From Bacteroidota bacterium (GTDB taxonomy: Bacteria; Bacteroidota; Ignavibacteria; Ignavibacteriales; Ignavibacteriaceae): a stretch of 64,000 nt of DNA. The translations under genes and the position numbers were made by a program. Position 1 is the stretch's first letter. Every line of letters begins with the position of its first letter. Shown one piece after another: positions 8,465 to 13,398 of this stretch. Below the pieces are notes generated by a model. That model was given only the letters and a program-made list of their open reading frames with translations, had not been told where the DNA came from and did no database searches. The stretch spans positions 1 through 64,000 of the forward strand of contig JADFLR010000017.1 of NCBI GenBank assembly GCA_022564295.1. Direction: 5' to 3'.

Positions 8465-8827
8465 TGTTTACCAATTATTTGTAAAATGAATAAATAACAT
8501 AATATTAAATGCTTATCTAATTAATTATTTAGAATAAATCAATGCTGAGCATTTAAATATAAAGAAAGCTATAATTGAAATGGATGCAAAAAAATGAATA
8601 TTACTATTGAATAATTTTAACACAAAATCTATCAGTTGCTGTTTCCCATTCTTAAGATTATTTTGGAGGGAGTGTGAATTGAAATTTATTATAAAACGAT
8701 TAAACTCAAACATTCGTTTATTGAGAACTTAGCGACAAGCAGGAAAAAATAAAACTACAATTGGACAAATCAAATCATCAGAATTAGGTAATTAAAATTC
8801 ATTGAATATAAGCTAAACAATAGGAAA

Positions 8828-9358
8828 ATGATTTTGGATTTACAACCAACTTTAGAAAATGAATTAATCATCTTAAGACCAATAAGTGAAAATGATTTTG
8901 AATCATTATATCAAGTGGCGAAAGACCCATTAATTTGGGAACAACATCCAAGTAAAGACCGATTTAGAAGAGATGTTTATGCAGACTTTTTTAAAGAGTC
9001 TATGGCTTCAAAAGGAGCGCTACTTATAATAGATAAAGCAAGCAACGAAGTAATTGGAAGCACAAGATTTAAACCAATTACTGGAGTTGAAACTGCTATT
9101 GAAATTGGTTGGTCGTTTCTATCAAGAAAATATTGGGGCGGAGTATTTAATAAATCTATGAAGAAATTAATGATTGACTACGCTTTCGAATCAATAGAAG
9201 ATGTCATTTTCTATATTGGAAAAGAAAATACACGTTCTCAAAAGGCTGTTGAGAAAATTGGTGGTATTAGAATAATAGAACCAAAATATCAGCATTTAAT
9301 TAAAAAAAATCAAAATGATTTCACCTATCTAATAAACAAGAAAGAATGGAAAAATTAA
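8828..9358 (+). CDS. GNAT family N-acetyltransferase (copy 1)
   Basis: 176 aa; ENELIILRPISENDF…YIGKENTRSQKAVEKIGG typical GNAT (RimJ-like). Confidence 0.9.
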   Translation: MILDLQPTLENELIILRPISENDFESLYQVAKDPLIWEQHPSKDRFRRDVYADFFKESMASKGALLIIDKASNEVIGSTRFKPITGVETAIEIGWSFLSRKYWGGVFNKSMKKLMIDYAFESIEDVIFYIGKENTRSQKAVEKIGGIRIIEPKYQHLIKKNQNDFTYLINKKEWKN

Positions 9359-9372
9359 TTAAAAGAATACCA

Positions 9373-9441
9373 GCCGCAAACAAAGTATTGACAATAATAG
9401 CTGCAAAGCGCAGATACTACGCATAGCCAAACCGTTGTGCG
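9373..9441 (+). repeat. attC-like imperfect palindrome (GCCGCAAACAAAG…CATAGCCAAACCGTTGTGCG)
   Basis: ~70 nt imperfect inverted repeat between cassette ORFs, right end CGTTGTGCG; resembles the site at 12677-12748. Confidence 0.5.
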
Positions 9442-9453
9442 TCATTATAAAAA

Positions 9454-10452
9454 ATGAATTCAAACAAAATGAAGGCAATTGTATGCACAAAATACGGACC
9501 TCCTGATGTTCTTCAGCTCAAAGAGGTAGACAAACCTACTCCGAAAGATAATGAAGTACTGATAAGAATATACGCCTCGACAGTAACATCAGGGGACGTG
9601 AGGATTCGAAGTTTCACATTCGCTCCCTGGTTCTGGCTCCCCGGGAAAATAATGTATGGTCTCACAGGACCAAGAAAACAAATATCAGGGAATGAGCTAG
9701 CTGGGGAAATTGAATTAGTAGGCAAAGATGTAACACGATTTAAGAAAGGTGACCAGGTGTTTGGAGCGACCAGCGGGTTATTGTTTGGTGGTACAAATGC
9801 CGAGTACAAATGTTTGCCTGAAGACGGGATGGTGGCACTCAAACCGGCCAATATGACCTATGAAGAAGCCGCCGCCGTTCCTATTGGGGGAGGTTCAGCA
9901 TTGCATTTTCTTAGAAAAGGAGCGATCCAGAGCGGACAAAAAGTCCTTATCTATGGAGCCTCTGGAAGTGTAGGCACTTTTGCAGTACAGCTTGCCAAAT
10001 ACTTCGTGGCAGAAGTGACCGGAGTATGCAGTACCACGAATGTAGAACTGGTGAAATCTCTGGGAGCCGATACGGTCATTGATTACACCAAAGAGGATTT
10101 TACCAAAAGCGGCCAGACCTATGACGCCATTTGTGATATGGCTATCAAGACTTCGTTTTCGCGTTGTAAAAGCTCCCTAAAGGAAAGAGGGGTCTATATT
10201 ACACTTGATTGGCCTCTTCTTCAGGCACTATGGACTTCAATGATAGGTAGCAAGAAAGTAATATTTGGGGTACCACCCGAAAGAATTGAAGATTTGAATT
10301 TCCTCAAAGAACTTATTGAGGCGGGAAAGATAAAATCGGTCATTGATAGACGCTATCCGTTGGAACAGACTGCCGAGGCTCATAGCTATGTTGACAAGGG
10401 TCACAAAAGGGGAAATGTAGTCATAACTGTGGAACATCATAACAAAGCCTAA
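9454..10452 (+). CDS. Medium-chain NAD(P)-dependent alcohol dehydrogenase / quinone oxidoreductase-like
   Basis: 332 aa; [47 protein letters not shown]. Confidence 0.9.
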
Positions 10453-10480
10453 CAAATGAGTATGAATCCGTATCATTACA

Positions 10481-11383
10481 ATGGATATTAATAAAATGAC
10501 AAATAAACAGACAATACTGATTACTGGAGTGACTGGATCCATTGGGGGAGGAGCTGCGGTCGCACTGGCAAAACGTGGCGCTAGAGTTGTGTTGCTCGGG
10601 CGTAAGCTCGAGAGATTAGAAGCCAGGGTGGATTCTATCCGTGTGGCTTTATCTGAAGCGCAGATCGATTATCAGGATACGGACATTGCCACGCTGGTAA
10701 TCGACTTCTCTGATATGGAGTCCGTAAGGCTCGCGGCCGCGGAGGCGTTGAACCGATTTCCAATGATACATGGACTGATATTATCTGCCGTTGCCCAAAC
10801 CCCAAAAAAGGGTCCGAACATCCTGCCCAGCGGTCATAAGGTGATTTTTGCAACAAACGTCATGGGGCCGTTTCTGTTTACCCAGCTGTTGTTAGACAGG
10901 ATGCAGCAATCAGACGGATTGGTCCTTCATGTGATTGCACCATTCTATAAAGAAATCGACTTGGATGATCTTGAAAGCATCAAGAAACACAGCACAAATA
11001 CGGCGTACGAAAGGACCAAGACAATGCACCGAGTTATCGCTGCGGAGTTGGCTCGACGATATGAAGGAAAAATCTCCTCTGTCGCATTCAATCCTACGTT
11101 CATCATCGATAAAACAGATCCGGAGGTAAAGAAAAGGTGGCTATCCACACTCGTGGGGTTTTTCTTTTATATGGGGTCAGTTTTCTTTGCAAAGCCACCT
11201 GCGGTCGCGGGTGAGCCTATGGCAGACCTGTTGCTCTCTCATAAAGATCGTAGTGCAATCAATGGTGCTTTGTTCAAACTATATAAACGCATCAATAAAC
11301 CTGATAAAGCAATGAACGATGAGGTATTAGGAAAAAGGTTGTGGGATGAGTTGGTTTTACTAACAGGACTAACGCAAGAATGA
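10481..11383 (+). CDS. Short-chain dehydrogenase/reductase family protein
   Basis: 300 aa; ILITGVTGSIGGGAAVALAKRGARVVLLGRK. Confidence 0.85.
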   Translation: MDINKMTNKQTILITGVTGSIGGGAAVALAKRGARVVLLGRKLERLEARVDSIRVALSEAQIDYQDTDIATLVIDFSDMESVRLAAAEALNRFPMIHGLILSAVAQTPKKGPNILPSGHKVIFATNVMGPFLFTQLLLDRMQQSDGLVLHVIAPFYKEIDLDDLESIKKHSTNTAYERTKTMHRVIAAELARRYEGKISSVAFNPTFIIDKTDPEVKKRWLSTLVGFFFYMGSVFFAKPPAVAGEPMADLLLSHKDRSAINGALFKLYKRINKPDKAMNDEVLGKRLWDELVLLTGLTQE

Positions 11384-11430
11384 AGCCCGAAATGTAGTTA
11401 TAAAGATAAATTGAAAAAAATAACGAACAC

Positions 11431-11562
11431 ACAACAACGTATAAAAATAATAGCCTAAATTATGCGAGATTTAACTGTTTGTATCCCGAATAAAATTAGT
11501 AGTAAACTGAACTTTTCTACAACCACAATCGGCTACTATTCTTATACTTAACGTTGTAGTCA
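11431..11562 (+). repeat. attC-like imperfect palindrome: arms ACAACAACGTATAAAAATAATAGCC / GGCTACTATTCTTATACTTAACGTTGT
   Basis: Long inverted arms 11431-11455 and 11533-11559, right end AACGTTGTAG. Confidence 0.55.
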
Positions 11563-11580
11563 ATTGAAAAAAAACATAAT

Positions 11581-11796
11581 ATGAAAATATTTGGACAAAT
11601 TTTAATAGGTATCGGATTAACACTTTTAATAGGAGGAATTGCAAGTTTTTATTTTGATAATGTTGAACTTGATTATTGGTTTGGAAAAATCAATTCTGAA
11701 TATGGTCGTTTTTTGTGGATATTAGTAAATCTAAGTATTGCTTTAATTGGATTTTCACTCATTCGGTTTACTAATCGAAAATCAAAAAAGAAATGA
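11581..11796 (+). CDS. Small two-TM membrane protein
   Basis: 71 aa; two hydrophobic segments; cassette-like context. Confidence 0.65.
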   Translation: MKIFGQILIGIGLTLLIGGIASFYFDNVELDYWFGKINSEYGRFLWILVNLSIALIGFSLIRFTNRKSKKK

Positions 11797-11905
11797 ACAA
11801 CATAGAACTTAACAAAGTATGATGATGGAATTGAGTTTTATGTTTCCATATGTATTGGAAATCTAACGGTAATAAATAAAGAAGTACTGGGACAGAATAA
11901 AAACT

Positions 11906-12037
11906 GGCTACAACAAAGTGTATAAATCATTGGGCAATAAATGATTAAATCAATGTTAGTGCTTTTATATAAACTAAGATATAAACCGAAAATGAAGCGT
12001 TTCAAAATGCCAAACGCTTCTTACACTCACCGTTAGC
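11906..12037 (+). repeat. attC-like imperfect palindrome: GGCTACAACAAAGTGTATAAATCATTGGGC … GCCAAACGCTTCTTACACTCACCGTTAGC, with nested perfect GAAGCGTTT/AAACGCTTC
   Basis: Inverted arms read by eye; nested 9-bp arms at 11994-12002 and 12012-12020. Confidence 0.5.
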
Positions 12038-12131
12038 TACAAGCGGGAAAAAATAAAACTACAATTGGACAAATCAAATCATCAGAATTAGGTAATTGAA
12101 ATTCATTGAATTTAAGCTAAACAATATGAAA

Positions 12132-12662
12132 ATGATTTTGGATTTACAACCAACTTTAGAAAATGAATTGATCATCTTAAGACCAATAAGTGAAAATGAT
12201 TTTGAATCATTATATCAAGTGGCGAAAGACTCATTAATTTGGGAACAACATCCAAGTAAAGACCGATTTAGAAGAGATGTTTATGCAGACTTTTTTAAAG
12301 AGTCTATGGATTCAAAAGGAGCTTTACTTGTAATAGATAAATCAAGCAACGAAGTAATTGGAAGCACAAGATTTAAGCAAATTATTGGAGCTGAATCTGC
12401 TGTTGAAATTGGATGGTCGTTTCTATCAAGAAAATATTGGGGCGGAGTATTTAATAAATCTATGAAGAAATTAATGATTGACTACGCTTTCGAATCAATA
12501 GAAGATGTCATTTTCTATATTGGAAAAGAAAATACACGTTCTCAAAAGGCTGTTGAGAAAATTGGTGGTATTAGAATAACAGAACCAAAATATCAGCATT
12601 TAATTAAAAAAAATCAAAATGATTTCACCTATCTAATAAACAAGAAAGAATGGAAAAATTAA
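12132..12662 (+). CDS. GNAT family N-acetyltransferase (copy 2)
   Basis: Start matched to copy 1; about 10 differences in 176 aa from 8828..9358. Confidence 0.9.
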   Translation: MILDLQPTLENELIILRPISENDFESLYQVAKDSLIWEQHPSKDRFRRDVYADFFKESMDSKGALLVIDKSSNEVIGSTRFKQIIGAESAVEIGWSFLSRKYWGGVFNKSMKKLMIDYAFESIEDVIFYIGKENTRSQKAVEKIGGIRITEPKYQHLIKKNQNDFTYLINKKEWKN

Positions 12663-12676
12663 TTAAAAGAATGCCA

Positions 12677-12748
12677 GCCGCAAACAAAAGCTATGACGAT
12701 AATAGTTGCTAAGAGCAGCTACTGCACATAGCCAAATCGTTCGCACAC
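12677..12748 (+). repeat. attC-like imperfect palindrome: GCCGCAAACAAAAGCTATGACGATAATAGTTGC-taaga-GCAGCTACTGCACATAGCCAAATCGTTCGC
   Basis: ~70 nt folded structure: GCTATG/CATAGC and AGTTGC/GCAGCT pairings. Confidence 0.55.
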
Positions 12749-12753
12749 ATAAG

Positions 12754-13326
12754 ATGAAAATCAGACTACTAATAATATTTTTACTAATTTTTAACCTTGC
12801 ATATAGTCAGGTTAAAGATACGTTGAGTGTATCAGCACTGAAATTGACGGAACAAGAAGTAACTTATGATCCAGCTTATTTTTTGATCGATTATCCAAAT
12901 GGTGATATTCCGAGTGATAAAGGAGTTTGTACAGATGTAATTATTAGGGCATACCGATTAATTGGAATTGATTTACAAAAAGATGTTCACGAGGATATGA
13001 AAGCTAACTTTGATAAATATCCTAAAGATTGGGGATTAAAAAAACCTGATAAAAATATTGATCACAGAAGAGTTCCTAATTTAATGACTCTGTTTGAAAG
13101 AAAAGGAACCGTAAAACCGATTACGATAAAACCAGAGGATTATTTACCAGGCGATTTAGTCTGTTGGAATTTAGGGGGCGGAATTTTACATATTGGAATT
13201 GTAGTTCATATAAAATCTGATTACGGATTAAGATATTTAATTGTCCATAACATAGGAGCAGGACAGGTGATGGAAGATTGTTTGTTCGACTTTAACATAA
13301 TTGGGCATTACAGATATAAAAATTAA
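12754..13326 (+). CDS. DUF1287 domain-containing secreted protein
   Basis: Signal peptide MKIRLLIIFLLIFNLAYSQ; DYPNGDIPSDKGVCTDVIIRAYR…PGDLVCWNLGGGILHIGIV; start moved to 12754. Confidence 0.85.
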   Translation: MKIRLLIIFLLIFNLAYSQVKDTLSVSALKLTEQEVTYDPAYFLIDYPNGDIPSDKGVCTDVIIRAYRLIGIDLQKDVHEDMKANFDKYPKDWGLKKPDKNIDHRRVPNLMTLFERKGTVKPITIKPEDYLPGDLVCWNLGGGILHIGIVVHIKSDYGLRYLIVHNIGAGQVMEDCLFDFNIIGHYRYKN

Positions 13327-13398
13327 TTACGTCTGCTAACAATGGCTATAATTCAGCTCGACGATGAGTAAAAATGAATACCGTTCTAAACTTTTACT

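Follow-up and report, generated by a model that had tools for sequence, protein, structure and literature searches.

A decayed gene cassette array in an Ignavibacteriales genome suggests a second integron-like system with an I2-less, XerA-like recombinase

Sedentary chromosomal integrons, together with the clusters of attC sites lacking integron integrases (CALINs), are the closest described systems to a cassette array found in a 64,000-nucleotide stretch of an Ignavibacteriaceae genome (GenBank assembly GCA_022564295.1, contig JADFLR010000017.1, positions 1 to 64,000), hereafter the window. They share with it cassettes of accessory cargo in one orientation, a G^TT crossover, folded R''/L''/L'/R' sites with a bottom-strand preference, and an attI-like site beside the integrase gene. 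In sedentary integrons the R box reads GTTRRRY and extrahelical bases are regular, and the loops of classical attC sites are variable. The integrase IntI carries the I2 (patch III) insert, described in the parts of Escudero 2020 (PMC7790495) concerned with it as necessary for cassette capture, as conferring single-strand recombination, and as present in no other protein. Complete integrons have been reported in Chlorobi and Ignavibacteriae by IntegronFinder 2.0 (PMC9024848).

The recombinase in question here, a 280-aa XerA-like tyrosine recombinase with the working name IntX, is related to several known enzymes. XerA shares with IntX its sequence family (NF040815, 224-230 bits) and fold (PDB 5hxy, 4a8e); its known role is the resolution of dimers at dif, whereas IntX is associated with cassette arrays and leaders and is found alongside ordinary Xer proteins. 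IntI4 of Vibrio cholerae (PDB 2a3v) is the best or second-best solved relative of IntX by sequence and fold, and the two have the N-terminal SAM-like domain type in common; IntI4 possesses I2, however, and its alignment with IntX falls into two parts on either side of the insert that IntX lacks. An "integron-like subgroup" of tyrosine recombinases includes insertion-less members, which are not linked to cassette arrays in the sections of the source that treat them (Smyshlyaev 2021, PMC8138268). No literature linking I2-less XerA-like recombinases to cassette arrays was found in a search whose scope excluded preprints and most subscription journals.

The whole case presented here is built on comparative sequence evidence. 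By that evidence, positions 8729-13340 of the window are a genuine integron-like gene cassette array, which can be read with good confidence as a decayed array belonging to an integron-like system that would use IntX as its recombinase. This system would differ from the sedentary integron in its XerA-like recombinase without I2, in an R box of 9-10 bp, in sites of the main class that keep to a fixed length near 120 bp, in an invariant G.T wobble where the sedentary integron has regular extrahelical bases, and in having several scattered copies of the attI-like leader. The genome, 4.07 Mb in 59 contigs of which the window is C58, shares its genus with bacterium BMS3Abin03 (order Ignavibacteriales), and the order-wide comparison set comprised 164 Ignavibacteriales genomes.

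The cassette array and its sites

The array consists of five + strand cassettes with six open reading frames (ORFs), two of which occupy one cassette, located between xanthine-dehydrogenase/XdhC genes and a Na+/Ala symporter gene. ORFs and palindromes lie where a first-pass annotation, made from the letters alone, had placed them. The G^TT boundaries fall at 8728/8729, 9434/9435, 11553/11554, 12032/12033 and 12739/12740, and the array ends in a truncated attC at 13332-13356. In the features below, R1 denotes a covariance model of attC trained on 24 bottom-strand sites of other genomes, none from this genome.

8713-8728, + strand: tail end of an attI-like leader that has degenerated; TTCGTTTATTGAGA is identical over 14 nt to an array leader on contig C49, with the TT crossover in register
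8729-9434, + strand: cassette 1, GNAT acetyltransferase (ORF 8828-9358; Acetyltransf_3, Pfam E 9e-20), boundaries common to its copy
9373-9442, - strand: attC of cassette 1, of the short class and with its L arm decayed; R'' GCCGCAAAC, R' GTTGTGCG
9435-11553, + strand: cassette 2, zinc-type alcohol dehydrogenase (ADH, 9454-10452) and short-chain dehydrogenase/reductase (SDR, 10481-11383), from Pfam
11427-11561, - strand: attC of cassette 2, 120-bp class (R1 68.6 bits, rough E 1.5e-12)
11554-12032, + strand: cassette 3, 71-aa membrane protein (ORF 11581-11796); 82% copy at C2:24723-25091; own R'' 5/6
11906-12040, - strand: attC of cassette 3, 120-bp class (R1 72.7 bits, rough E 2.1e-13)
12033-12739, + strand: cassette 4, second GNAT copy (ORF 12126-12662), 95.5% identity to cassette 1
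12677-12747, - strand: attC of cassette 4, short class (R1 9.7 bits, rough E 4.4, same coordinates; fold)
12740-13340, + strand: cassette 5, DUF1287 protein (ORF 12754-13326; Pfam PF06940, E 2e-65)
13332-13356, - strand: attC of cassette 5, truncated to R'' and L'' (TCTGCTAACAATGGCTATAATTC), right arm gone

The right part of R' in a circular mobile cassette is the cassette's own 5' end, and R'' is therefore expected to match the start of its own cassette, not that of the next gene. Each of the five cassette starts was compared with the R'' of its own cassette at the six positions past GTT, 30 bases in total, which gave 4, 5, 5, 3 and 4 matches for cassettes 1-5. This total of 21/30 stands against a permuted mean of 10.8 and was reached in 2/120 permutations, the R'' boxes of both GNAT cassettes being identical. 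In cassette 2 the start GTTGTGCGT pairs with R'' ACACACAAC at 5/6 bases, and in cassette 5 GTTCGCACA agrees with TCTGCTAAC at 4/6. The R'' boxes match the starts that follow them in situ at merely 1, 2, 1 and 2 of 6 bases.

The same cassettes also occur in different places. The GNAT cassette is present in two copies (8729-9436 and 12033-12741), 95.5% identical between flanks of 48-53% identity; the homology is confined precisely to the stretch from the TT of G^TT to the next GTT. The copy of the membrane-protein cassette on C2 matches from the start through R'' and then continues into a different 44-nt attC. The ADH gene in another genome (G138) is flanked by two attC sites, and a short attC precedes a GNAT homologue in G001. 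Conserved gene order would have spoken against cassettes according to the first-pass annotation; among the 164 genomes, no other genome matches the array beyond single genes or sites.

The sites form a recognizable family. R1, which serves the covariance-model check proposed at first reading, matches the two long sites on the - strand, at E-values of roughly 2e-13 and 1.5e-12; the top strand scores only 13 bits, and the whole genome yields 8 sites, on C44, C49, C58 and C31. The 24-site alignment contains 25 pairs with compensatory changes in 19/25, and AAC/GTT is invariant. Midway along the L stem, whose pairs covary freely, 24/24 sites have a G.T wobble, and 16/24 have a second; extrahelical bases are seen as bulges in some sites only. 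The spacing between R'' and R' is 119-125 nt in the main class, about 45-60 in the short class and about 182-188 in the long class. The array sites carry the R''/R' and L''/L' boxes and the GTT crossover of classical attC. The bottom strand folds more stably in 27/36 sites of other genomes (p 4e-5) and in 11/12 sites of this genome (p 0.009). Unlike the variable loops of classical attC, the loop core TTGTARCCCGCTTCAACTT...CCCGCAATC is conserved across genera in ~120-bp sites of C49, C44, L041, L095 and L175.

The integron cassette architecture put forward at first reading is thus upheld by the pairing, by the GNAT and C2 copies, by the out-of-sample R1 matches and by the unconserved order. Some details were revised. 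The arms had been called alike in fold and not in sequence, but the two long sites belong to one family with ~120 bp spacing and an invariant G.T wobble. The palindrome at 9373-9441 is an attC (9373-9442), albeit a decayed one, and the truncated left half after the last gene is indeed an attC from 13332 to about 13356 without its right arm. The motif at ~8729, taken for the right half of an attC, proved to be the leader tail at 8713-8728 instead.

IntX, its relics and its linkage to arrays

The window retains 14 nt of the C49 leader variant at 8713-8726, and the insertion point lies between 8728 and 8729. Nine relative loci share a conserved region upstream of IntX, AATATAACATATAGTCC..GATATACGCAATGCGTGTATTGAGATG^TT, whose end at the crossover lies 81-83 bp from the ATG. 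About eight to ten copies of this leader, most of them lacking IntX, are scattered through the present genome, where the leader stands at the head of other arrays; such leaders were recorded on C44, C31, C13, C29, C18, C22, C49 and C2 (L184-L192, genome G000). BLAST with the long leader of C44 found the C44 copy only, and a short attI model for leader searches, R2, then found about eight; the leader of the window is absent from the R2 list at E<=1. A second leader type occurs at some other Ignavibacteriales IntX genes. In relatives an attI-like site stands beside IntX, and this genome keeps leaders with IntX as a relic only.

Two features upstream of the array concern the recombinase and its neighbor gene.

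2510-2758, + strand: decayed N-terminal fragment of IntX (XerA-like, I2-less); tblastn 45% to IntX of G009, E 7e-14
2763-2828, + strand: C-terminal remnant of a MobA-like NTP-transferase gene; translation ECEFEEIIQDVDMEDDLSVNQ, resembling ECGYEEIFQDIDTEEDYSKLN of the MobA-like genes at L036 and L029

The fragment was recognized using an intact 281-aa homologue from a sister species (L036). In tblastn it matches IntX of G004 (40%) and G049 (39%) and, more distantly, IntI (29%, E 5e-5), with no match to the genome's own XerC/XerD. The MobA-like NTP-transferase gene of which 2763-2828 is a remnant adjoins intact IntX in G004. A second N-terminal relic on C49 (55-57% identity, E 3e-34) is divergent from its leader and lies inside a second array. 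That array (L029, C49:160000-178000, minus strand, 14760 to 4960) is larger, with an IntX relic and two leaders; its cargo, named by eye, includes three DUF1254-like genes, an arylamine N-acetyltransferase, a glyoxalase, a thioredoxin-like gene and others. IntI is absent from the genome at the TIGR02249 cut-off of 265, with one weak match, inside the window. The first-pass annotation had reported no integrase and had asked for intI elsewhere in the genome: this holds for IntI, none of which exceeds the cut-off, and fails for IntX, whose relic lies within the window.

Three IntX proteins tested with NF040815 (XerA; cut-off 220), for which the NCBI product name is "site-specific tyrosine recombinase/integron integrase", exceeded the cut-off, while a Labilibaculum member (216.8) and a Carboxylicivirga member (202) fell below it. 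With TIGR02249, IntX reaches 203-214, the match being split in two around the missing insert. Nearly all of 69 members have 91-92 residues between box I and HxxRHS (89 in one), versus 133 in 8 IntI, and the linked IntX proteins are without the 42-residue insert that characterizes classical IntI. No helix lies between H172-185 and H202-216 in the IntX structure model (pLDDT 86), and the nearest solved structures are XerA 5hxy and IntI4 2a3v. In an 89-row tree, the array recombinases lie on one side of a 97/91 branch, in a clade spanning Bacteroidota and other phyla; IntI (100/100) and Xer/archaeal XerA stand apart. Rows without a detected array are also found on the array side, many of them with truncated flanks. 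At 89 and 99 bp from XerA-like genes in Aenigmarchaeota (L140) and Diapherotrites (L147), respectively, there may be a leader and a first cassette. These DPANN loci fall outside the main clade and are not claimed as members; they may bear on integrase-less archaeal arrays.

In relatives, intact IntX genes adjoin arrays. In G049 and G009, the neighboring cassettes show perfect pairing of own start and R'' (ACGCCCAAC/GTTGGGCGT, ATGCCTAAC/GTTAGGCAT, GCCACATAAC/GTTATGTGGC, TGCCACCAAC/GTTGGTGGCA), and G160 has a chain of two cassettes. In Bacteroidota, N-terminally extended IntX relatives are followed by cassette chains: five in Carboxylicivirga linearis and three in Labilibaculum filiforme, in which own start and R'' agree at 6/6 throughout, and two cassettes in other cases. 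First cassettes, with an exact match of at least 6 within 700 bp, were detected on 11/56 downstream and 12/69 upstream sides versus 9/237 controls. On the array side, many IntX contigs break off after no more than a few hundred bases, which would be expected of assemblies interrupted by repeated sites. A closed Chryseobacterium plasmid (L202, NZ_CP041688.1) carries four R1 sites in co-directional genes downstream of its recombinase, and insertions also known from classical integrons, here an IS110 element and a group II intron, interrupt its array. Class D beta-lactamases closest to the RAD family, with NF012161 scores above the cut-off, are the products of two Labilibaculum filiforme cassettes (L132:8923-9702 and 10966-11769).

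Readings of the array

The best surviving alternative is a classical CALIN, in which a canonical IntI integron, since lost, laid the cassettes and the IntX relics are coincidental. The attC architecture and the GTT crossover are integron-like, as this reading requires; IntI occurs in 56/164 genomes of the order, two of them within the genus, and IntI genes often stand at contig ends, possibly hiding their arrays. Across the order, however, site number and adjacency follow IntX, not IntI, which weighs most heavily against a plain CALIN. Sites were found in 89 genomes and IntX in 34; the mean site number per genome is 5.2 with IntX only and 5.6 with both, but 1.8 with IntI only, equal to the 2.0 of genomes with neither. 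Among the sites listed, one lies within 10 kb of 11/23 IntX genes versus 0/24 IntI genes. IntI over the cut-off is absent in 8/10 array genomes, Bacteroidota arrays exist without IntI, and the relics and leaders of this genome are IntX-type. The CALIN-like label given at first reading applies in that at least two attC sites stand without intI nearby; the loss of IntI that it implies fits less well, as the sites in this order follow the I2-less IntX. A classical CALIN is accordingly considered unlikely. Integrase matches of G038, G027 and similar genomes, being IS91-associated, were excluded from consideration.

Several observations weigh against the IntX reading. No intact IntX was found in this genome, and the leader of the window is degenerate. 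At the thresholds used, sites are present in 39/90 genomes with neither integrase, so that loss, contig-end fragmentation or missed genes must be invoked. IntI is common in the order and occurs in the genus itself (G002, G005), and it could therefore use such sites in trans. Shuffled sites show a smaller bottom-strand bias too (-0.5 kcal, p 0.02), the short GNAT sites score weakly with R1, and all E-values from R1 and R2 are only rough.

A second alternative, less probable still than the CALIN, regards IntX as the host's Xer-type chromosome-dimer recombinase, standing by chance beside arrays moved by something else. The assignment of IntX to XerA by NCBIfam agrees with it. Yet the genome has two ordinary Xer proteins, on C15 and C41, IntX is patchy (34/164) and forms a separate clade, its gene lies at a fixed distance from a leader that ends at the crossover, and relatives of it reside on plasmids. 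The idea that the palindromes are unrelated terminators or REP-like (repetitive extragenic palindromic) repeats among ordinary neighboring genes hardly deserves credence: simple repeat searches do fail to single the palindromes out, but the own-start/R'' pairing, the GNAT duplication at exact GTT, the C2 copy and the out-of-sample R1 matches on the correct strand contradict it. Rfam at gathering scores gave no match within the window; an attC finder demanding long perfect arms recovered almost nothing, and the start/R'' chain test was used instead; the PF13009 profile had zero matches anywhere and was hence uninformative.

A possible mechanism and its significance

Cassette boundaries, own-start/R'' complementarity, strand bias, the site family, the leader, the relics, the linkage of IntX to arrays elsewhere and the absence of I2 can be read directly from sequence, and from them IntX as the catalyst, a single-stranded substrate and a role for the wobble are inferred. 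IntX would bind the folded bottom strand of the cassette attC, with the R''/R' and L''/L' arms paired and a loop of about 70 nt, and would exchange strands at G^TT between attC and the attI-like leader beside its own gene. Exchange between leader and attC would insert cassettes in one orientation, and exchange between two attC sites would excise them. The choice of strand might come mainly from the conserved G.T wobble, which is paired in the bottom strand and becomes an A.C mismatch in the top strand. The dispersed arrays of this genome are probably frozen and eroding, unless some enzyme acts in trans, because IntX is reduced to two N-terminal fragments, one attC is decayed and one is truncated.

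These comparisons suggest that a second, largely unrecognized integron-like system is widespread in Bacteroidota and relatives. It is reasonably likely that this is a second integron system in its own right, in which a clade of XerA-like recombinases, having never possessed the I2 helix or having no need of it, captures cassettes as folded single strands in Bacteroidota, Ignavibacteriota and other phyla, and in which a fixed G.T wobble determines the polarity of the sites. The I2 requirement becomes directly testable through a widespread recombinase that lacks I2 and stands beside attC-like arrays, and this bears on the origin of integrons. Integron finders that require the IntI domain would class such arrays as integrase-less CALINs, and cassette traffic in Bacteroidota is thus probably undercounted; this traffic would include the class D beta-lactamase cassettes of Labilibaculum and the Chryseobacterium plasmid array. 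If the proposal is true, many "orphan" CALINs in Bacteroidota, Ignavibacteriota and other phyla would belong to the second system, and that system could stand for a stage without I2 or for integrons that arose in parallel.

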